Source of the DNA: a virus
Length of the DNA stretch: 31,640 nt
Strand: one strand, 5' to 3'
IMG/VR virus record: IMGVR_UViG_3300033064_001215
Coordinates: 1 to 31,640 of that record
Position 1 is the stretch's first letter, and every line of letters starts with the position of its first letter. The position numbers and the translations under genes were made by a program. Of this stretch, positions 6,321-18,395 are shown piece by piece. The notes below the pieces were generated by a model that worked only from the letters and a program-made list of their open reading frames with translations, did no database searches and was not told where the DNA came from.

Positions 6321-9300
6321 ATGGCATTAGGATCACCAGGCGTACAAGTACAAGTTATTGACGAGAGTTTTTATCTCGCAGCCGCTCCAGGTACTGTCCC
6401 ACTAATTTTTGTAGCTACTGCACAGAACAAGAGCAATGCTTCAAAAACGGGTACAGCACAAGGAACTCTTGCAGCAAATGCAGGAAAAGTTTATGTTATT
6501 ACCAGCCAGCGAGATCTTACTGATACGTTTGGTACACCGTTATTTTACACAGACAACAATAGCAACCCAATTCACGGCGGAGAATTAAATGAATACGGCC
6601 TTCAAGCTGCATACAGCTTATTAGGTGCTACTTCACGTGCATATATTGTTCGTGCAGATATTAATTTGGGTCAGTTGCAACCTACTAGCAGTGCACCTGC
6701 AGGTAACCCAGTTTCAGGCACTTATTGGTTAGATACTCGTAGTTCATTGTTTGGTATTAGTGAGTGGGATTCTACTACTAAGAAATTCACCGCAGTTACT
6801 CCGTTAATTATAGACGATACCAATAAAGTAACTTCTACTATGTCAGGCGTGCCAGTTGATGCATTTGGTAAGCAAGGAGACTATGCAGTAGTAGTTACTA
6901 ATGAAAATACAAATGCCATTTATTATAAAACTACCTTATCAACTGCTGCATGGGTTTTAGTTAGTTCTGCTACACTAGGCGACGGATTATTAGTTACGGT
7001 TAGTCCGTACAACATGTATCCTACATATACGGTTGACACTCCCACTGGTAGCGTATGGATTAAAACATCTACTCAGGGATTTGGTGCAAATTGGGTAGTG
7101 AAATATTATAACGGTGCCGCTAAATCATGGGCAACTATTTCTGCTCCAATTTATCAGAGCACACAAAAAGCCATTCAAGTGATGGATGCAACTGGAGGAT
7201 CAAAAATTCCTGTTGGTACATTATTTGTAGAAGCAGCATCTAACGGATTACCATCTGAAAATGCAGTTGCAAATTTTAAAATATGGCGTCGCAGTTCAAC
7301 TGGGGCAACTACTATTGTTAGTGCAGCATCCAATACAATGTCATCAACAGACAGTACATTTGCAATTAGTGAAACCCTTACTACACGACTTGCTCAAGGC
7401 CCAAGCGGTCCGTTCTATCCTTCATTGCCGCTGGGATTGATTAGTCAAGTAATTACAGTTACAGTTCCTGGATCCACTACAGAAAGCATTGCATCATTAA
7501 TTCCTGCAGCACTCAACACTGCCGGTTTGGTAAATGTATCAGCAACTTACGACAGTGTTAGCAAGCAAGTTTCGTTTAGTCATGCATTAGGCGGCGACTT
7601 CAGTCTTGTAGATGTTACTGGTATTGCATTAGCTACTATTGGATTAGATCCGGCGAGTACTGCTAATTTATACGCAGCACAACCTGATTCACAATTTGCA
7701 TTCTTAGCATCAAATTGGAAGCCACTTCGATACGAAGCGATTGCAACTGCACCTGTTACTATTGCAGAAGATGGCCAACTATGGTACAATTCAGTGCTTG
7801 ATGCAGATATTATGGTGCACGATGGCCAAAAATGGGTAGGATATCTATCGCCTACTAGCCCATACTATAACGATAACACTTCTTTAAAAACCGATCCGCA
7901 AGGACCAATAATTTCTGCTCTTGAGCCAACTGCCCAAAGTGATAGTACTCCTTTAGTTGATGGCGATATTTGGTTGTCAACTTCTAGTGTAGAAGCATAT
8001 GGACGTAGTGTATACGTGTATGATGGTAATTTGTTAAAGTGGATATTACAGGATGTTTCGGATCAAACAAGTCCAGACGGATGGTTGTTTGCCGATGCAC
8101 GATGGGGAACCGAAGGTTATCAAATACAACCTGCATCGATTACCAGTTTGCTAGTTTCTGACTATGTTGATCCAGATACCCCAGATCCAGAATTATACCC
8201 ACGTGGTATAAAACTATGGAACTTACGTCGTAGCGGATTTAACGTTAAGAAATATATAGTAGGACATATTAATACTCAAGCCAATAACGGATTAAATATT
8301 CGTTATGAAAATGATAACATGGCAGGATATGTATCAGATCGATGGGTAACTGTTAGTCCAAACTATGAAAATGGTGCAGGAACTTTTGGACGCATGGCTC
8401 AACGTGGTGTAGTTGTTAAAGAACTTAAAGCGCTTATTGATGTTAATCAATCTACTCGCGATACTGATACAGTAGTATTCAATTTAATTGCTACTCCTGG
8501 TTATCCAGAGGCTATTCAGAACATGATTGCATTCAATACAGATCGTGGTCAAACAGCATTTGTCGTGGGTGATACTCCGTTCAGATTACAACCAACAGGA
8601 ACTGCATTATCCGCATGGGGCAATAATACTGGATTAGCATTTGATAATGGTGATGTTGGTGGAGTGAGCTATGACGAGTATATGGCTATGTTCTATCCAA
8701 GCGGCTATACAACAGATAATACCGGCAACAATATTGTTGTTCCTCCAAGTCATATGATGTTGCGTACCATTGTGAACAGCGATGCGAAAAGCTATCAATG
8801 GTTTGCTCCAGCAGGAACACGCCGTGGCGGTGTTGATAATGCCACTTCAGTTGGTTATATTGATTCGTTAACAAGCGAATTTAAAACGGTTGCATTGTAC
8901 GAAGGTCTTCGTAATGTATTGCATGATGTTAAAATTAATCCAATTGCAACATTGCCAGGAGTGGGTATTGTAAACTTTGGACAATATACCCGTGCAAGAA
9001 ATACCAGTTCGCTAGATCGTATTAACGTTGCACGTTTGGTATGTTATTTGAGAAGACAATTAAGTATCCTGGCTAAACCATATTTGTTTGAACCAAACGA
9101 TGCTCAAACACGTCGCGAAATTAAAGCGGCTGCAGAAAGTTTAATGTTGGAACTAGTTGGTCAGCGTGCATTATATGACTTCATTGTTGTTTGTGATGAA
9201 TCAAATAATACACCATCAAGAATTGACCGTTCAGAATTATATATGGATATTGCGATTGAGCCAGTTAAAGCAGTTGAATTTATTTACATTCCGTTACGTT

Positions 9301-9335
9301 TAAAAAATACAGGCGATATTAGAGCAGGATTATAA
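6321..9335 (+). CDS. 18: Tail sheath protein gp18-like, strongly expanded
   Basis: The contractile sheath subunit. The N-terminus (SPGVQVQVIDESFYLAA) and the conserved C-terminal half (RMAQRGVVVKELKALIDVNQ, then GVGIVNFGQYTRAR, then EPVKAVEFIYIPLRL) are typical T4-like sheath. At 1004 aa it is far longer than T4 gp18 (659). The extra sequence lies between about residues 115 and 600. It carries about five related beta modules, for example GTYWLDT (133), GSVWIKTS (243) with YYNGAAKSWATI, DGQLWYN (484) with HDGQKWVGY, and DGDIWLS (547) with YVYDGNLLKWILQ. These probably decorate the outer sheath surface. AAGGAG precedes the ATG, and a strong terminator follows. Function is secure; the role of the modules is inferred. 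Confidence 0.95.
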   Translation: MALGSPGVQVQVIDESFYLAAAPGTVPLIFVATAQNKSNASKTGTAQGTLAANAGKVYVITSQRDLTDTFGTPLFYTDNNSNPIHGGELNEYGLQAAYSLLGATSRAYIVRADINLGQLQPTSSAPAGNPVSGTYWLDTRSSLFGISEWDSTTKKFTAVTPLIIDDTNKVTSTMSGVPVDAFGKQGDYAVVVTNENTNAIYYKTTLSTAAWVLVSSATLGDGLLVTVSPYNMYPTYTVDTPTGSVWIKTSTQGFGANWVVKYYNGAAKSWATISAPIYQSTQKAIQVMDATGGSKIPVGTLFVEAASNGLPSENAVANFKIWRRSSTGATTIVSAASNTMSSTDSTFAISETLTTRLAQGPSGPFYPSLPLGLISQVITVTVPGSTTESIASLIPAALNTAGLVNVSATYDSVSKQVSFSHALGGDFSLVDVTGIALATIGLDPASTANLYAAQPDSQFAFLASNWKPLRYEAIATAPVTIAEDGQLWYNSVLDADIMVHDGQKWVGYLSPTSPYYNDNTSLKTDPQGPIISALEPTAQSDSTPLVDGDIWLSTSSVEAYGRSVYVYDGNLLKWILQDVSDQTSPDGWLFADARWGTEGYQIQPASITSLLVSDYVDPDTPDPELYPRGIKLWNLRRSGFNVKKYIVGHINTQANNGLNIRYENDNMAGYVSDRWVTVSPNYENGAGTFGRMAQRGVVVKELKALIDVNQSTRDTDTVVFNLIATPGYPEAIQNMIAFNTDRGQTAFVVGDTPFRLQPTGTALSAWGNNTGLAFDNGDVGGVSYDEYMAMFYPSGYTTDNTGNNIVVPPSHMMLRTIVNSDAKSYQWFAPAGTRRGGVDNATSVGYIDSLTSEFKTVALYEGLRNVLHDVKINPIATLPGVGIVNFGQYTRARNTSSLDRINVARLVCYLRRQLSILAKPYLFEPNDAQTRREIKAAAESLMLELVGQRALYDFIVVCDESNNTPSRIDRSELYMDIAIEPVKAVEFIYIPLRLKNTGDIRAGL

Positions 9336-12114: not shown

Positions 12115-12597
12115 ATGACACGCAAATTAGAAGACTTATTGGGCCTTGCGCCAGTTGTTAAACCTTTAATATTACCTACTCCAACGGATATGGAACCAAT
12201 AGTTACTATTTCGTTAGCTGACAAATTAGAAGAGTTTGACAAGATTTCATCAGCATTGCCCAGAGTAAAAGGACTAGGCGATATAAGTGATCAAGAATTT
12301 GATGACCTTGCTGCTAAAGCAGAACAAGCGTATGATGATTTAATGGATCTTGGAATGAATGTTGAACCAAGGTACGGTGCCCGCATGTTCGAATGTGCCA
12401 CCAATATGCTTAATGCTGCAATTACTGCCAAAAGTGCAAAAATTGACAAAAAATTAAAAATGGTTGATTTGCAACTTAAAAAACTAGCAATTGACAAAAA
12501 ACACGGGACTGGCAACGATGATACTGTAGAAGGTCAGGGATACATTGTAACTGATAGAAACAGTATTCTAGAAAAGTTAAAGAATTTAAATAAATAA
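12115..12597 (+). CDS. 16: Terminase small subunit gp16-like
   Basis: A 160-aa protein of the same size as T4 gp16 (164 aa), the ring-forming regulator that recognises DNA and stimulates the large terminase. GARMFECATNMLNAAITAKSAKIDKKLKMVDLQLKKL forms the long central coiled-coil-like hairpin that in T4 reads HMEVFATLMGQM and TTTNREILKLHKDM. The C-terminal tail VTDRNSILEKLKNL may contact the large subunit. It lies two genes upstream of the large subunit; in T4 genes 16 and 17 are adjacent, so an insertion of two virion-type genes separates them here. Expected leaderless late transcript. Confidence 0.8.
   Translation: MTRKLEDLLGLAPVVKPLILPTPTDMEPIVTISLADKLEEFDKISSALPRVKGLGDISDQEFDDLAAKAEQAYDDLMDLGMNVEPRYGARMFECATNMLNAAITAKSAKIDKKLKMVDLQLKKLAIDKKHGTGNDDTVEGQGYIVTDRNSILEKLKNLNK
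12589..12596 (+). promoter_or_regulatory. Possible late promoter AATAAATA before 12604 gene
   Basis: AATAAATA ends 7 bases before ATG 12604, overlapping the gp16 stop. Predicted leader is only about 2 bases. Confidence 0.5.
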
Positions 12598-12603
12598 TAT
12601 ACT

Positions 12604-13194
12604 ATGACAAAGACATTCAAACATTATCTATCAGAAAGTACTAAACGTTATGATTTTCGTGTAAAGATTGCCGGTAAGTTTACAACCGAGCAAGAAGCTG
12701 CATTAAAAACATTGCTAGATAAGTACGCGATATCTGAATTTAAAAAATCAGCTACTACTCCTATACAAGAACTTCCTTTGGATTTTCCGCAAGTTAAAAA
12801 TTGCGAAGTAAATATCTATGAGGTATGTTTAGATTATCCCACTACTCAACAGGAACTAACTGAATACTTGGCAACTGCGCTAGGCGTCGGAAAACAACAC
12901 TTAGTTGTTCGGCGTCCGGGGGAACCTAGCGAGGAATATCAGCAGCCTGTTGAAAAGCACGAAGGTGCATTATTAAATGATAGTCAGTATAAAGAAGCAG
13001 GCAATCCAAAATTTGACGATTTTTATGGCGACAAATATAACACTGGGTTTGTTAAAGAATTAAACGATATTTTAAAATTACAGCGCAAAGAGCGAGGCGA
13101 AATTATACCTTGCGATGGCAAGGCTACCTTCAACACTGAAAGCCCACAGAATACTTCAAGTATTTTACAACAAGCACCGGACCCAAGGAAATAA
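12604..13194 (+). CDS. Probable head-interior / prohead-associated protein
   Basis: A 196-aa protein of no recognised family. The N-terminus reads TFKHYLSESTKRY; the LSE-S step fits the (L/I)-x-E cleavage preference of the T4 prohead protease, and short amphipathic peptides of this kind often precede processed head-interior proteins in T4-like phages. The middle (DFRVKIAGKFTTEQEAALKTLLDKY, VNIYEVCLDYPTTQQELTEYLA) looks like a small alpha/beta domain. Then come FDDFYGDKYNTGFVKELNDIL and a polar tail. It is placed between the terminase subunits and two bases before the next gene. Head localisation is inference. Confidence 0.7.
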   Translation: MTKTFKHYLSESTKRYDFRVKIAGKFTTEQEAALKTLLDKYAISEFKKSATTPIQELPLDFPQVKNCEVNIYEVCLDYPTTQQELTEYLATALGVGKQHLVVRRPGEPSEEYQQPVEKHEGALLNDSQYKEAGNPKFDDFYGDKYNTGFVKELNDILKLQRKERGEIIPCDGKATFNTESPQNTSSILQQAPDPRK

Positions 13195-13196
13195 TT

Positions 13197-14588
13197 ATGA
13201 ACATGATTGATGTAATGAAACGTCTAGCAGAACTAGATGCAACAAACCCAAATGTACAAACTGAGGCATACGGTGTAGGCAATCGTGCTCGTCAAAACAC
13301 TAATAATAAAACATATAACGATTATATGTCCGATATTAAGTACGATGATGGCCAAGCTAAAATGCGCGGCGTACAACGTGCCGGCCACCGTGATGCTGTA
13401 GGCGAGGAAGACCCTACAGCACATGTACATATTAACGGCAAGCCATGGAAACAATTTCCATCGCGTGATGAAGCCAAGCGTGTTGCTGCTAACGTACAAA
13501 ATAAATACCCTGACAAAAAAGTTGAAGTATTTGGCGGGGAGATATCAATGAGTGAAGCAGAACATTCACGCACTTGCCCAACTTGCGACGGCAACGGCGA
13601 AGATATTTTACACAGCAATAAGCCGTGCCCCCAATGTGACGGTAAAGGTTCTATTCCAATGTCTAAGGAACAGGATGTATCCGAAGGTAAAGTTAAAGAA
13701 CTGGCAGATGATTTAAAAAATCTATCTGCTGAGGAGTTTGAAAAAGCACATAGCATGACAAAAGCGGAAGCACGCAAGGGATTATCAGAAAGTATTGCAG
13801 ACATGCGTCGTTTAGCAGGAATGACGCCGCTAGCAGAATGCGGAATGAATCCTATGGATTCGATGGGCGTAATGAACACAATGCCTGCTATGCCTGCTTC
13901 CATTTCAATCACTGCAGCAAATGGTCCGGAACTAAGTGGTATGCTTAAAGACATTATGTCATTAGCAGGTCTTAATAAAGTAGAAGCAGTACATTTAAAT
14001 CCAGCGCCGCCCGCACTAATGCCGCCAATGCATGATGCAGGTGCAGCTAGTCCTGACGGTATGTCAATGCGTAGCGTAATGGACAGGCTAAATCCAGACA
14101 TGGGCGACGATATGGAAGACGAGGGAGTAATGGGCGGATTAGCAGGCGCTGCAGCAGGTGCAGTACTCGGCGGTCCAATGGGCGCTGCAGCAGGATACGG
14201 CGTAGGCAGCAAAATGGGCGACGATTTATCAGATGATGACACTGAAGAGGATTATGATAATACTCCTGCCGATCCTCGTAAGAAGCCGGCATTTGATGCT
14301 AATCAGCATGCAAATCAAGCTAACCAACCAGGGCAAGGTGATAGAATGGACGGTACGATGCCCCGTGCACATCCTTACATGAAAAAGACCATGGAACAAA
14401 TTGAACAATCATTGTTCGACGATTATCAATCGTTTATTAATGAGGATGAATTTTCAGCAGAAAAACCAGCTACTAAATTTTCTGCTGCTGATAAAAAGAA
14501 ATCAGATTCGCTAAAAAAGTCCTCCGGTAAATCCAACGCTGATGCACTAAAGAAAACTTCAGATGCGTTTGCTAAGAAAAAAGCATAA
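13197..14588 (+). CDS. Large head-region protein with DnaJ-like zinc motif and glycine-zipper segment
   Basis: A 463-aa multi-module protein, AAGGAA before the ATG. Modules in order: N-terminal helix MNMIDVMKRLAELD; a small domain around HVHINGKPWKQFP (~85) and KKVEVFGG; two CxxCxGxG zinc-binding motifs at about 126-151 (CPTCDGNG and CPQCDGKG), as in the DnaJ cysteine-rich domain but with only two copies; LSESIADMRRLAGMTPLAE (~197-215) with two possible (L/I)xE prohead-protease sites; a Met/Pro-rich linker; a Gly/Ala segment at ~311-334 (GGLAGAAAGAVLGG, GAAAGYGVG); an acidic stretch; and a Lys-rich tail. The basic tail recalls T4 internal head proteins. No enzyme motif. Function unknown; head-internal or scaffold role inferred. 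Confidence 0.8.
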   Translation: MNMIDVMKRLAELDATNPNVQTEAYGVGNRARQNTNNKTYNDYMSDIKYDDGQAKMRGVQRAGHRDAVGEEDPTAHVHINGKPWKQFPSRDEAKRVAANVQNKYPDKKVEVFGGEISMSEAEHSRTCPTCDGNGEDILHSNKPCPQCDGKGSIPMSKEQDVSEGKVKELADDLKNLSAEEFEKAHSMTKAEARKGLSESIADMRRLAGMTPLAECGMNPMDSMGVMNTMPAMPASISITAANGPELSGMLKDIMSLAGLNKVEAVHLNPAPPALMPPMHDAGAASPDGMSMRSVMDRLNPDMGDDMEDEGVMGGLAGAAAGAVLGGPMGAAAGYGVGSKMGDDLSDDDTEEDYDNTPADPRKKPAFDANQHANQANQPGQGDRMDGTMPRAHPYMKKTMEQIEQSLFDDYQSFINEDEFSAEKPATKFSAADKKKSDSLKKSSGKSNADALKKTSDAFAKKKA

Positions 14589-14604: not shown

Positions 14605-14632
14605 AAATAGCTCCTCCAGGGGCTATTTTTTT
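14605..14632 (+). terminator. Rho-independent terminator before large terminase
   Basis: Ten-base stem (14605-14614 with 14619-14628, one G-U pair), loop TCCA, then a T-run. Confidence 0.9.
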
Positions 14633-14633
14633 C

Positions 14634-14641
14634 ACTAAATA
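14634..14641 (+). promoter_or_regulatory. Late promoter ACTAAATA, 5 bases before terminase large subunit
   Basis: ACTAAATA, AAAGC, ATG at 14647. It follows directly on the terminator; no Shine-Dalgarno sequence. Confidence 0.75.
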
Positions 14642-14646
14642 AAAGC

Positions 14647-16239
14647 ATGGCAACTAAACCTAAAAATCTTGAAGGCACGTTAATTAAAAAAGCTCACGCT
14701 ACCCAGCGGTGGACAGAGCAAGATGTTGAAAACTTATTAAAGTGTCAGGATCCTGTATACGGGCCTGCATACTTCTTAGAAAATTTCTTCTATATTCAAC
14801 ATCCTACTAAAGGACGCATACAATACAAAGCATTCGACTATCAAAAATTGTTATTAGATAGTTATCATAATCATCGATTCAGTGTAAACATGTTGGGGCG
14901 GCAGCTGGGTAAAACTACTACTGCAGTGGGTTATTTGTTATGGTACGCAATGTTTGTCGATGATAGTACTATTTTGATTGCAGCACACAAATACTCTGGC
15001 GCACAAGAAATTATGCAACGTCTTCGATATGCATACGAAATGTGCCCTGACAACATTCGAGCAGGTGTTACTAGTTACAATAAACAAAGTATTGAATTTG
15101 AAAATGGTAGTCGTATTGTTGCACAAACTACTACTGAAACTACAGGTCGTGGTATGTCAGTATCTTTACTATATTCAGATGAGTTTGCATATGTAGAACC
15201 CAATATCGCCACAGAATTCTGGACATCAATCAGTCCTACACTAGCAACTGGTGGTAAAGCAATCATCACTTCAACGCCAAATAGCGATGAAGATCAATTT
15301 GCTCAAATTTGGAATGAAGCTAACAAGCAATTTGATGAATTTGGTAATGAAACTGAATTGGGAAGAAATGGTTTTTATCCGTTCATGGCTATATGGAGTG
15401 AGCACCCTGATCGTGATGAAGTGTGGGCTAATACTGAACGTAGTCGAGTGGGTCAAGAACGATTTGAGCGAGAGCATGAATGTAAATTCTTAATTTTTGA
15501 TGAAACACTTATCAACAGTATTAGCCTCGGCGACATGACGGGGATTGACCCTATTATGAAAATGGGGCAAGCAAGATGGTACAAAAAAATTAATCCGCAA
15601 TCGACTTATATTTTTAGTTTAGATCCCAGCTTGGGTACGGGAAGTGATTATGCTGCTATTCAGATTATTGAATTACCAAGTTTTGTTCAAGTAGGAGAAT
15701 GGCATCATAATATGACTCCCGTTCAAGCACAGGCTCGTATCCTACGCGACTTAGTAAAATATGTGGATGATCAATGTCAAGCAGCAGGCGTTACCAGCAG
15801 CATTTATTACAGTGTGGAAAATAATACAGTGGGCGAAGCTGCATTGGTGTCAATTAGCGAGTTAGGAGAAGAAACATTTCCGGGATTGTTCCTATCAGAG
15901 CCAATTAAAAAAGGACATTCGCGCAGATTTAGAAAAGGATTTAACACAACACATGTTTCAAAAATATCTATTTGTGCAAAATTAAAACAGTTAATTGAAA
16001 CCAAACAGATTACTCTTAACAGCAAGACTTTAATTAGCGAATTGAAAACTTATATTGCTCGAGGTACAACTTTTGCAGCAAAGACAGGGCAGCATGATGA
16101 CTTGGTAGCTAGCTTGCTACTAGCAATCAGAATGATTGTATTACTGCAGGATTGGGATCCTGCAATTTACGATAAAATGCGCGAAGCAACTGCAGATGAT
16201 TGGGATATGCCTTTGCCAATCTATATCAGTAGCTTTTGA
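14647..16239 (+). CDS. 17: Terminase large subunit (packaging ATPase/nuclease) gp17-like
   Basis: A 530-aa DNA packaging motor (T4 gp17 is 610 aa). The ATPase domain has Walker A GRQLGKT at 84-90 (T4: SRQLGKT), Walker B with catalytic Asp-Glu in LLYSDEFA at ~175-181, and the coupling motif IITSTPN (~206). The RNase-H-like nuclease domain starts at FSLDPSLGTGSDY (~325) with its catalytic Asp, continues with YYSVENN (~385), and ends with GQHDDLVASLLLAI containing the last acidic pair. The motor packages concatemeric DNA into proheads and cuts it. It has its own terminator-insulated late promoter with leaderless spacing; its stop overlaps the next late promoter. Confidence 0.97.
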   Translation: MATKPKNLEGTLIKKAHATQRWTEQDVENLLKCQDPVYGPAYFLENFFYIQHPTKGRIQYKAFDYQKLLLDSYHNHRFSVNMLGRQLGKTTTAVGYLLWYAMFVDDSTILIAAHKYSGAQEIMQRLRYAYEMCPDNIRAGVTSYNKQSIEFENGSRIVAQTTTETTGRGMSVSLLYSDEFAYVEPNIATEFWTSISPTLATGGKAIITSTPNSDEDQFAQIWNEANKQFDEFGNETELGRNGFYPFMAIWSEHPDRDEVWANTERSRVGQERFEREHECKFLIFDETLINSISLGDMTGIDPIMKMGQARWYKKINPQSTYIFSLDPSLGTGSDYAAIQIIELPSFVQVGEWHHNMTPVQAQARILRDLVKYVDDQCQAAGVTSSIYYSVENNTVGEAALVSISELGEETFPGLFLSEPIKKGHSRRFRKGFNTTHVSKISICAKLKQLIETKQITLNSKTLISELKTYIARGTTFAAKTGQHDDLVASLLLAIRMIVLLQDWDPAIYDKMREATADDWDMPLPIYISSF

Positions 16240-16245
16240 TAAATA
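16238..16245 (+). promoter_or_regulatory. Late promoter GATAAATA, 5 bases before ATG 16251
   Basis: GATAAATA overlaps the terminase stop codon, then TTATT and ATG. No ribosome-binding site; predicted start on the A of ATG. Confidence 0.75.
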
Positions 16246-16250
16246 TTATT

Positions 16251-18395
16251 ATGAAACCTATACAAATGATTTCCCAAGACCTGTTTGATAAGATTCGCAG
16301 CCGTTTCGATAATTTAGAAATGGGCGACGAAACAGGCGCAGTTACGATTGATCCTCAGGCAGCAATGTTTTTTGATTTTGACTTTATTCAAGAAGGTTCT
16401 AATCTCGGACGTGTCAGTATCAGCTTAAATGATTTAGGCAGTCTAAAAGTATATTATAGCCAAGGTATTACAGAAAATCAAGACGATCCGGCTAAACAAT
16501 TATGGTACAGTTTCCTAAAAGAAATGCGGATGTTTGCCATGCGCAGACTACTACGATTTGATACCCGTGACATTGCAAAGACTAATCTTGATAAAAACGA
16601 TTTCCAACACCTTGCTACTGCCCAGCGACCTAAAGAAGAAGAAAGCAATACTATGAACGAATCAAAATGGAATCAAAAAAGTACAAAGAAAACCAGTCGG
16701 GCTGCACGCGGTGCAACTGAAGTAATTGTACGACACAATAAAGCAGTTGATGTAGAGTCAGTTGGTTCCCGAAGCCGCGAGAATAATATAAAAGCTATTT
16801 TTATCCAAAATAGAGATGGTGAGAGATTTAAATATCCATTTATTCATCCAGCTGGTGCATTTGCTATGGCACAACACGTTGATCACGGAGGGGCACCTTA
16901 TGATGCTCCAGGAAAAGCTATTGTTAAGATGAGCGAACAAATTGCTCAATTGCAAGAATTTCACCGTCAAATTAAACCTGCATCAATGCATGCCGATGCA
17001 ATGGGAATCAGTGTACGAGCACAGGATCGATTATCAGAGCTAAAAGCCCAAATAGAATCGTTAGGTAAACGAGCACATTATCAAACTTGGATGGCAGAAT
17101 TTGCTGAAAATCCCGATGCAGATGCAGTAATGGAACTCGATGCAGTAACTATGGAAGACTATAAACAGAAGTTTACTCAAACAAATTTTAAAGAAGAGTT
17201 AGCAAGTTTCTTTCCGTTAATTCATAGTATTATGCAAGAAACTAATGAACTGGATTTGGAAGAATTTGTCAGTGAAGAGCCTGATACAGTCATTGAAAAT
17301 AATTCTATTGCAATTAAGACGGAGTCACAACAGTTTGAAGAATGGGCTGATTCAGTTGAACAAAATAAGCTGACTTCGGATCAAGTTGATGCAATGAAAA
17401 CAGCATTAAGTGATTTAGAAACTTCTAACCAGTCGTTGGATCTTGGCCCAGCTGGGCAAACTGCATGGAACTTTTTTAATGAGTTTGGTATTAACGATAC
17501 TAGTCTTGAAGATAAATTTAGAGATATGGCTAATATTGATGCTAGTACAGACCCACTAGAAGTATTTCAAGCATGGGCCCAGCAAGATTATCCAGAACTG
17601 TTAGTAGCATTAGGTATGAGCGGAACGGGGCAGCCACAAGAAAATCCTAGTCCATCGAGCCCTGTAGACTCTGAACAACCCCCTGAAGAAGAAATGTCGG
17701 AAGATGATATGACGCAGCAGGTTACTGGAATGGAATCACACGATCCGCAAGAAATGATTAAAGAAATAGCAGGTATTGTCAAAAGTTTTTATAATCGAGA
17801 TAACCCAACAGTAGGCCCATTCCGAGGGGAAGAGGGTATTTCTTTGGATATAGGCAAGCAGATTAGTGAAAAATACGGCGATGATGCAGGTGAACTATCG
17901 CGTCAAATCGCAGAAAAATTTATGCAAAAACTAACAAGCGAGTGGGAGCTACGACATAACATCACAGTTAATGGAAAACCAGCTCATTCAGTTGACGATG
18001 GCGGCCTTGCTAGATTAAAAGAGCTAGTAGGTAATATCAAAGCCAAAGTTGAAAACAAAGATGTTGAACCAAATCTTAAATCTTATATGATGCGTGATCC
18101 AAGTATGGAAGAAAACAGTCCGTGGGATAGTATAGGTAAACGTGCAAGTACTATGGGCGGACATTCACCGGGGCAATTATCAGCTGATCAAAAAGCTGTT
18201 GCTGATAAATTAACTAAACAAAAGTTATCAATTAATACTAATGGCGGAACAAATACAGTTCCGATGGTGCGTAACCGTGACGGCAAACTAGTACCTGATC
18301 CATTTGCAGCAAATGCTGCAGCTCGCAAAGCAGGTATTTCAGAAAATTCCGATGATGCACTACTACGCAAAATTCGTAAGCTAACACGAAAATAA
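16251..18395 (+). CDS. Large conserved virion-region protein
   Basis: A 714-aa protein. ATG at 16251 is preferred over the in-frame TTG at 16236, which lies upstream of the predicted transcript start. The N-terminal ~130 residues (FDFDFIQEGSNLGRVSISL, SLKVYYSQGITE, WYSFLKEMRMFAMRRLLRFDTRDI) form a domain I recall from many aquatic T4-like phages beside the terminase, function unassigned. A Lys/Arg-rich linker follows, then an alpha/beta domain (KAIFIQNRDGERFKYPF, HPAGAFAMAQHV), long helical segments, a Pro/Glu-rich acidic spacer (~460-490), and a C-terminal helical part ending in RKIRKLTRK. No enzymatic motif. A structural or head-assembly role is inferred from late expression and position. 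Confidence 0.8.
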   Translation: MKPIQMISQDLFDKIRSRFDNLEMGDETGAVTIDPQAAMFFDFDFIQEGSNLGRVSISLNDLGSLKVYYSQGITENQDDPAKQLWYSFLKEMRMFAMRRLLRFDTRDIAKTNLDKNDFQHLATAQRPKEEESNTMNESKWNQKSTKKTSRAARGATEVIVRHNKAVDVESVGSRSRENNIKAIFIQNRDGERFKYPFIHPAGAFAMAQHVDHGGAPYDAPGKAIVKMSEQIAQLQEFHRQIKPASMHADAMGISVRAQDRLSELKAQIESLGKRAHYQTWMAEFAENPDADAVMELDAVTMEDYKQKFTQTNFKEELASFFPLIHSIMQETNELDLEEFVSEEPDTVIENNSIAIKTESQQFEEWADSVEQNKLTSDQVDAMKTALSDLETSNQSLDLGPAGQTAWNFFNEFGINDTSLEDKFRDMANIDASTDPLEVFQAWAQQDYPELLVALGMSGTGQPQENPSPSSPVDSEQPPEEEMSEDDMTQQVTGMESHDPQEMIKEIAGIVKSFYNRDNPTVGPFRGEEGISLDIGKQISEKYGDDAGELSRQIAEKFMQKLTSEWELRHNITVNGKPAHSVDDGGLARLKELVGNIKAKVENKDVEPNLKSYMMRDPSMEENSPWDSIGKRASTMGGHSPGQLSADQKAVADKLTKQKLSINTNGGTNTVPMVRNRDGKLVPDPFAANAAARKAGISENSDDALLRKIRKLTRK

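Follow-up and report, generated by a model that had tools for sequence, protein, structure and literature searches.

A conserved frame carrying changeable small modules in a probable head protein encoded next to the large terminase gene of a putative jumbo phage

The gene at positions 13197 to 14588 (+ strand) of the 31.6-kb stretch of viral DNA analysed here (the window) probably codes for a T4-type protein of the prohead core or head interior, in which a conserved frame carries shuffled mini-domains that would be packaged as cargo. Comparison of the sequences of this protein and its relatives shows that a thin conserved frame carries small modules which vary between phages, and that many of these modules recur in other proteins, chiefly in homologues of the head protein encoded downstream of the large terminase subunit (TerL). 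The reading frame starts with ATG and encodes 463 aa. As a preliminary description of this DNA had noted, the protein has two CxxCxGxG motifs, CPTCDGNG at aa 127-134 (13575-13598) and CPQCDGKG at aa 144-151 (13626-13649), a Gly/Ala segment and a Lys-rich tail. Four of its five cysteines fall within the two motifs. In 200,000 shuffles of the protein at least one CxxCxGxG arose in 65 and two arose in none, so the pair is not given by composition alone. In the Gly/Ala run (aa 309-342) 20 of 34 residues are G or A, with eight overlapping GxxxG, and the last 46 residues of the protein hold 13 K against 6 D/E. The interpretation that the preliminary description built on these features is partly supported: a scaffold or core protein of the head region fits our results, while a single working architecture made up of the three features is not supported.

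The window carries T4-type genes for tail sheath, tail tubes, a gp4-type head-closure protein and TerL, and also for a single-strand binding protein, UvsX, UvsY, a helicase and a primase. Its TerL (14647..16239, +, Terminase_6N match) is closest to that of the PA5oct group of jumbo phages (55%), followed by those of Phosso and Atu_ph07, and some contigs of the window's relatives exceed 320 kb. We infer that the window comes from a jumbo phage. The gene had been described as lying between the terminase genes, and for the downstream gene, clearly TerL, this is correct. The candidate small subunit at 12115-12597, however, matches a TerS family only at E=0.036 (and a family of unknown function at 2e-15), and the gene at 12604..13194 (+), whose product is internal-protein-like with the T4-type capsid-targeting N-terminus MTKTFKHYLSE, intervenes. 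Downstream of TerL lies a further head protein gene (16236..18395, +). The TTG start of the latter is probably too early, as the consensus of eight homologues begins MKAIQIISQDLFDK, pointing to the ATG at 16251. Between the 13197 gene and TerL (14605-14634) a hairpin of ten pairs with a U run after it (-12 kcal/mol, z -2.0) may be a terminator or attenuator. The 1004-aa tail sheath protein at 6321-9335 (phrog_10581, E=2.5e-214) has its Pfam sheath C-terminal domain at the extreme end. A 195-aa ORF at 26480-27067 matches the short DNA polymerase family phrog_11778 (E=1.1e-61), so the polymerase may be divided among several genes.

A conserved frame with variable modules

Sequence searches return almost no relatives of the 13197 protein. 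By tblastn against 50,697 phage records nothing was found with this protein or with its relative L021, a sequence search of viral_contigs found only L002 and L003, and there is no match in PADLOC. Relatives were therefore gathered by position, in one scan starting from TerL and another from the 12115 gene. From each scan the best 80 matches were taken, plus a few other loci, and the family counts given here describe near relatives and not all. Among these loci 140 sources have a homologue of the 12604 gene (the window being counted once), and in 134 of them an ORF was obtained, taken as the one between the 12604 homologue and TerL; 122 of these ORFs are unique. An iterated profile unites 120 of the 122, including that of the window. 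Some contigs were present in both scans; in the 120, identical proteins are counted once and near-identical ones are kept. Members cut at contig ends are also among the 120, and length and tail counts use the 105 complete members. One relative, L010, is without flanking homologues and so was left out of the family counts. The corresponding ORFs of PA5oct and Phosso were not detected by the family profile; in Phosso the first ORF tested was the longest in the interval, and the ORF adjoining TerL was also undetected. In Atu_ph07 a 113-aa ORF directly upstream of TerL (L007:11572-11913) is a weak match to the profile (E=0.09) and may be a distant member.

The position of the gene is well kept: the family ORF ends at most 120 nt from TerL in 98 of the 117 loci holding both flanks. 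Its length is not. The coefficient of variation of protein length is 0.42 in the family, versus 0.04 for gp4-like proteins, 0.06 for the 12115 type, 0.07 for the 12604 type, 0.08 for TerL and 0.18 for the downstream head protein, these neighbour sets being redundant. A protein encoded directly upstream of TerL, and mostly keeping that place, could be a packaging cofactor of the terminase. We regard this as improbable, given that the family shares modules with a second head gene, the PA5oct homologue of which is annotated as a virion protein. Moreover, in Phosso and Atu_ph07 the corresponding interval also contains a long fibre-like gene, so that it is not reserved for components of the terminase.

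The frame begins with an N-terminal helix ending in xxE, in the forms 'M.MIDVxKRLAELD' or 'MNFxxLxxKIxxIDE'. In the 13197 protein this helix ends in LAE (aa 1-12, 13197..13232, +) and is a candidate capsid-targeting propeptide; E12 is invariant, and a helix is predicted at 3-15. An 'xECG' site follows, and then the 'LSGMLKDIMSLAG' helix, the stretch at this point taking the form 'SIxMTAxSGxELxxMLxDIMxLAG' or else 'VNMNxSMNGSGAGGIRDLMxIL'. In the window protein this central part comprises the LAE-CG site and 'SISITAANGPELSGMLKDIMSLAGL' (aa 199-262, 13791..13982, +), including the 'LKDIMSLAG' helix, and E214, A240 and E245 are invariant in 43 chosen sequences. The C-terminal part of the frame is 'YDNxPxDP...GDRMDG' (here 'YDNTPADP…GDRMDG') or an equivalent, followed by a C-terminal helix. 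From the alignment and the predicted structure we place it in the window protein at aa 349-420 (14241..14456, +), with 'YDNTPADP...NQPGQGDRMDG' and the helix 'TMEQIEQSLFDDYQSFINE'. The alignment (A3), whose 43 rows were chosen by hand from the 'RLAELD' type with L010 added, has eight invariant columns, two of which are the Glu residues of LAE12 and LAE214. With this alignment AlphaFold2 predicts frame helices at 3-15, 243-256 and 399-419 at a mean pLDDT of 60.2, with 195 of 463 residues below 50, and the acidic middle of the frame is predicted to be disordered. In the relative L002, recovered by sequence search, the parts that align are aa 1-23 and 212-415, and the motif pair, the Gly run and the Lys tail are all missing.

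The features singled out in the preliminary description lie, by comparison of the sequences, in the variable part of the protein. The CxxCxGxG pair occurs in one of the 120 family members, the window protein itself; Cys-rich modules of any kind, belonging to several unlike types, are found in 12 (the window protein and 11 others). A strict Gly zipper is present in four of the 120, and of the 105 complete members 15 end in a Lys-rich stretch. The positional relatives thus keep the frame, mostly without these features, and the combined architecture that was to be sought in relatives is not a conserved protein type.

The Cys4 module (aa 121-163, 13557..13685, +), placed between MSE120 and VSE163, contains half of the DnaJ motif set, two CxxCxGxG motifs where DnaJ has four. 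A co-chaperone of the DnaJ type acting in head assembly would account for these motifs and for the match of the protein to the Pfam DnaJ central domain (DnaJ_CXXCXGXG, E=1.7e-4), although at 22.2 bits this match lies below the curated cut-off of 32.7. The match to Anti-TRAP is of similar quality (E=4e-4, 20.8 bits, cut-off 32). The same balance is seen for the module, which matches 1exk, the Cys-rich domain of DnaJ, at E=0.0016 and 3lcz, Anti-TRAP, at E=0.0022, about equally weakly. The Pfam matches, taken up to E=1, include no J domain. With half of the motif set, matches below the Pfam cut-off and the pair in no other of the 120 members, we reject kinship with DnaJ and consider a co-chaperone role very improbable. 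Anti-TRAP (RtpA) and the DnaJ Cys-rich domain are alike in having two CxxCxGxG-type motifs around a short loop; unlike them, the piece found here is a stretch of about 30 residues within an unrelated protein. Judged from sequence, the most fitting view is of a small putative zinc hairpin that may be swapped, at a place where other members carry other pieces.

The Gly-zipper-like module (aa 309-342, 14121..14222, +) enters into the suggestion that the protein might be ejected and membrane-active, its glycine zipper helping DNA or protein to cross a membrane. The eight overlapping GxxxG motifs agree with this, as do weak matches to Pfam Gly-zipper families in this protein (E=0.34), in L010 and in L151. 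Yet no helix is predicted over the Gly run, where pLDDT is below 50, and the relatives which bear the frame are mostly without a strict zipper, L002 being without all three features. Membrane passage aided by a zipper is not supported by these results, and we consider such a role highly doubtful.

Modules shared with other genes

Modules of the family are found in other genes as well. Thirty-four of the 120 family proteins share a stretch with ORFs outside the family at E<1e-5, and 96 of 100 such matches, in 33 of the 120, are to homologues of the 16236 protein. Examples are 'EEGIEDRLKDLDPKNPVN...', 'EEYVACIVxFNRSG...' and 'AYNPNSVDAEHRR...'. Cys-rich pieces are shared too: 'VSCSSCGDKFK...CSDHKGHK' is common to L112, L092 and the downstream protein of L161, and 'TCSACHKDPCxCDDE' to the family protein of L161 and the downstream protein of L108. 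In L031 a 78-residue module is present in both genes of the same contig with 77% identity. Several modules keep 60-80% identity across different backbones.

The window protein is absent from the 34 sharing proteins at E<1e-5 and is linked to the pool of modules by three of its five variable pieces, NGKPW, VKEL and Gly, in module-only searches. The first of these, the NGKPW module (aa 71-120, 13407..13556, +), lies between VGE70 and MSE120 and has relatives in several different backbones. AlphaFold2 predicts a beta-beta-alpha-beta mini-domain, confident in its core (block pLDDT 91-93 over segment residues 11-40); a Foldseek search of the PDB with the model gave no match at E<=0.001. Relatives are found in L010, at the C-terminus of L018 and in a 151-aa protein of L179, and the module also occurs inside a cytidyltransferase-like protein in L180, L181 and L182. 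The latter protein corresponds to L180:4001-4228 and L182:2534-5086, and in L182 the copy is accompanied by a Cys-rich stretch (LCPVCMKQECQCDD). A copy in L093 is weak (24%) and was assigned by eye. Used as a tblastn query, the NGKPW module with the Cys stretch gave 30 weak matches, the best at E of about 0.01, and in viral_contigs it found L010 alone. A profile of the module run over 11 contigs matched only the contig holding the L018 copy, which is itself in the profile.

The VKEL helical module (aa 164-198, 13686..13790, +), between VSE163 and LSE198, has related stretches at the C-termini of L011 and L153 and in L088_2918_5086. By module-only blastp the Gly module has relatives in six positional orthologues (L102, L137, L144, L147, L151 and L161), in L010 and in other proteins, including L032_8583_10925 and L151_8336_10804 encoded downstream of TerL; as these are matches of Gly-rich sequence, the weak ones may reflect composition. 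The same type of search found no relatives of the Cys4 module or of the Lys-rich tail (aa 421-463, 14457..14585, +) among the collected ORFs; Lys-rich ends as such are present in 14 other complete members.

Exchange of fragments between phage proteins, or mosaicism, is known (PMC10684548). The account in that source names tail, lysis and replication proteins, and the words 'internal' and 'ejection' are absent from its main text. In the open-licence literature searched we found no account of modules common to the two head genes that flank the terminase.

A proposed role in the prohead core

The setting of the gene points to the prohead. T4 IPII and IPIII (L176) begin with MKTYQEFIAE, which parallels the MTKTFKHYLSE of the 12604 protein, and the pattern K-[TSN]-[FYML]-x2-[YFHMIL]-[LIVMFY]-x-E occurs near the N-terminus in 90 of 125 unique 12604 homologues. 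This suggests, from sequence likeness, that the 12604 product may be a packaged head protein in its own right. In IPIII, targeting depends mainly on residues 4 and 7 and processing on residues 8 and 10, and the site of the prohead protease gp21 is given as L/I-x-E (PMC9026906). In the 13197 family [LIVM].E is present in the first 24 aa of 112 of the 120 members, versus 327 of 1197 comparable windows elsewhere, and the strict [LI].E in 104 of the 120. A gp21-type prohead protease (S77, PF03420) was found in all six related genomes or contigs tested; the window, itself a fragment, has no S77 match. In PA5oct the homologues by sequence of the 12604 and 16236 proteins (EST35_0202 and EST35_0206) are annotated as detected by ESI-MS/MS, the latter as structural. 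The PA5oct ORF between the 12604 homologue and TerL, EST35_0203, is likewise annotated as structural and ESI-MS/MS-detected, and is a counterpart by position only. This Wroclawvirus protein resembles the window protein in its place and similar length, in the motifs 'ILRLAGV' and 'ISKLAGI' and in a short Cys-rich stretch, and differs from the family in being undetected by its profile. Position, the T4-type capsid-targeting neighbour, the prohead protease of the relatives and the annotation of the PA5oct counterpart all fit the idea of a scaffold or core protein of the head region put forward in the preliminary description.

The closest known parallel may be the T4 internal proteins IPI, IPII and IPIII. 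They have in common with the 13197 family a short N-terminal segment ending in hydrophobic-x-Glu, a variable remainder, a neighbourhood of head genes and a prohead protease in related genomes. They are, however, separate proteins, while the 13197 family has several small modules on one frame and shares them with a second head gene. The N-terminus of the family (MNMIDVMKRLAE) is also without the K-T-Y/F pattern of the T4 internal proteins, and the likeness is one of features, with no homology claimed. According to PMC9026906, a short tag can load diverse proteins into the T4 head, one of these, IPI, inhibits a restriction enzyme of the host after its injection, and varied packaged proteins in relatives of T4 are already known. 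A further parallel, drawn by analogy and not from sequence, would be with the T4 core proteins gp22, gp67 and gp68, which share the proposed prohead-core role and several candidate protease sites.

We propose that the frame serves to anchor the protein in the prohead core, where a gp21-type protease would cut after Glu at the N-terminus and at some of the places where modules join. In the window protein the modules are the beta-beta-alpha-beta mini-domain, the putative Cys4 zinc hairpin, the short helical module, the Gly-rich stretch and the Lys tail; they would then remain inside the head as cargo packaged alongside the DNA. They may have been traded by recombination because, as we propose, the host or DNA targets on which they act vary. 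The zinc hairpin would in that case be one swappable piece rather than a remnant of DnaJ. If the frame does load a changeable string of mini-domains, this would explain how phages of this kind can renew a packaged kit without new genes. It would also yield a list of small peptides that are candidate effectors or candidates for association with DNA, and an anonymous gene adjoining the terminase would become open to experiment.

A transient scaffold or assembly factor is a less probable, though not negligible, explanation of the same protein. Here the frame would organise the prohead core, the pieces would be degraded and leave, and the modules would be tolerated spacers. The acidic linkers and the 195 of 463 residues with pLDDT below 50 are consistent with this, and a precedent is described in PMC5694885, where cleavage of T4 gp22, gp67 and gp68 gives short fragments, which then leave. 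Identity of 60-80% between modules in different backbones would nevertheless be unexpected of free spacers, and the positional counterpart in PA5oct is annotated as ESI-MS/MS-detected.

The reading as a frame with packaged cargo can be taken further. In a stronger and more speculative form, to which we give only a modest chance, the two head genes flanking the terminase are recombination frames for a shared library of cassettes of about 35-90 residues. As the head matures, the prohead protease would cut these frames, freeing mini-proteins for packing beside the DNA and delivery to the host, and the cargo list would be re-dealt between phages. From the window protein the mini-proteins set free would be the beta-beta-alpha-beta domain, the zinc hairpin and a short helical peptide. 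In L179 (842-6832) several of a series of consecutive ORFs have short N-termini that end in x-x-E and contain pieces, such as 'KPDFLDMDKDGNKKEPMKKAVADK', that are also found in the 13197 family; this series may be an array of packaged mosaic proteins.

Glutamate sites at module joints

Eight [LIVM].E-type sites are present in the window protein, four of which fit the strict L/I-x-E. Six of them (LAE12, VGE70, MSE120, VSE163, LSE198 and LAE214) fall between modules as drawn, the other two being VKE168 and INE416; the module edges were drawn by hand, partly at the Glu sites themselves, and the coincidence in this protein is no test. Over the family, [LIVM].E followed by S, G, A or D occurs near 27 of 94 left module edges, versus 7.2 at positions shifted by 14-35 residues, and with a harder redundancy filter at 21 of 82 versus 6.8. 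Versions of the pattern with Asp or Lys are unenriched at left edges (2 vs 2.2 and 5 vs 4.1, respectively). At left joints the preference is thus for Glu with a small residue or Asp after it.

Such a preference would be produced both by a Glu-specific protease and by acidic linkers. Plain E[SGAD] is itself enriched at left joints (44/82 vs 24.2), as is the Glu class with other residues two positions before (19 vs 7.8), and [LIVM]..E is raised too at left edges (20/94 vs 11.6). Acidic linkers could explain part of the signal, and we treat protease sites at the joints as a lead, not as proof. The strict [LI].E is not clearly enriched at left joints (13/82 vs 8.5 in the shifted control, sd 2.2), and L/I-x-E was dropped as a joint signal. 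Right-hand joints show no enrichment (25/119 vs 36.4 at random). In whole proteins compared with shuffles both [LIVM].K (746 vs 512) and [LIVM].E (771 vs 634) are in excess.
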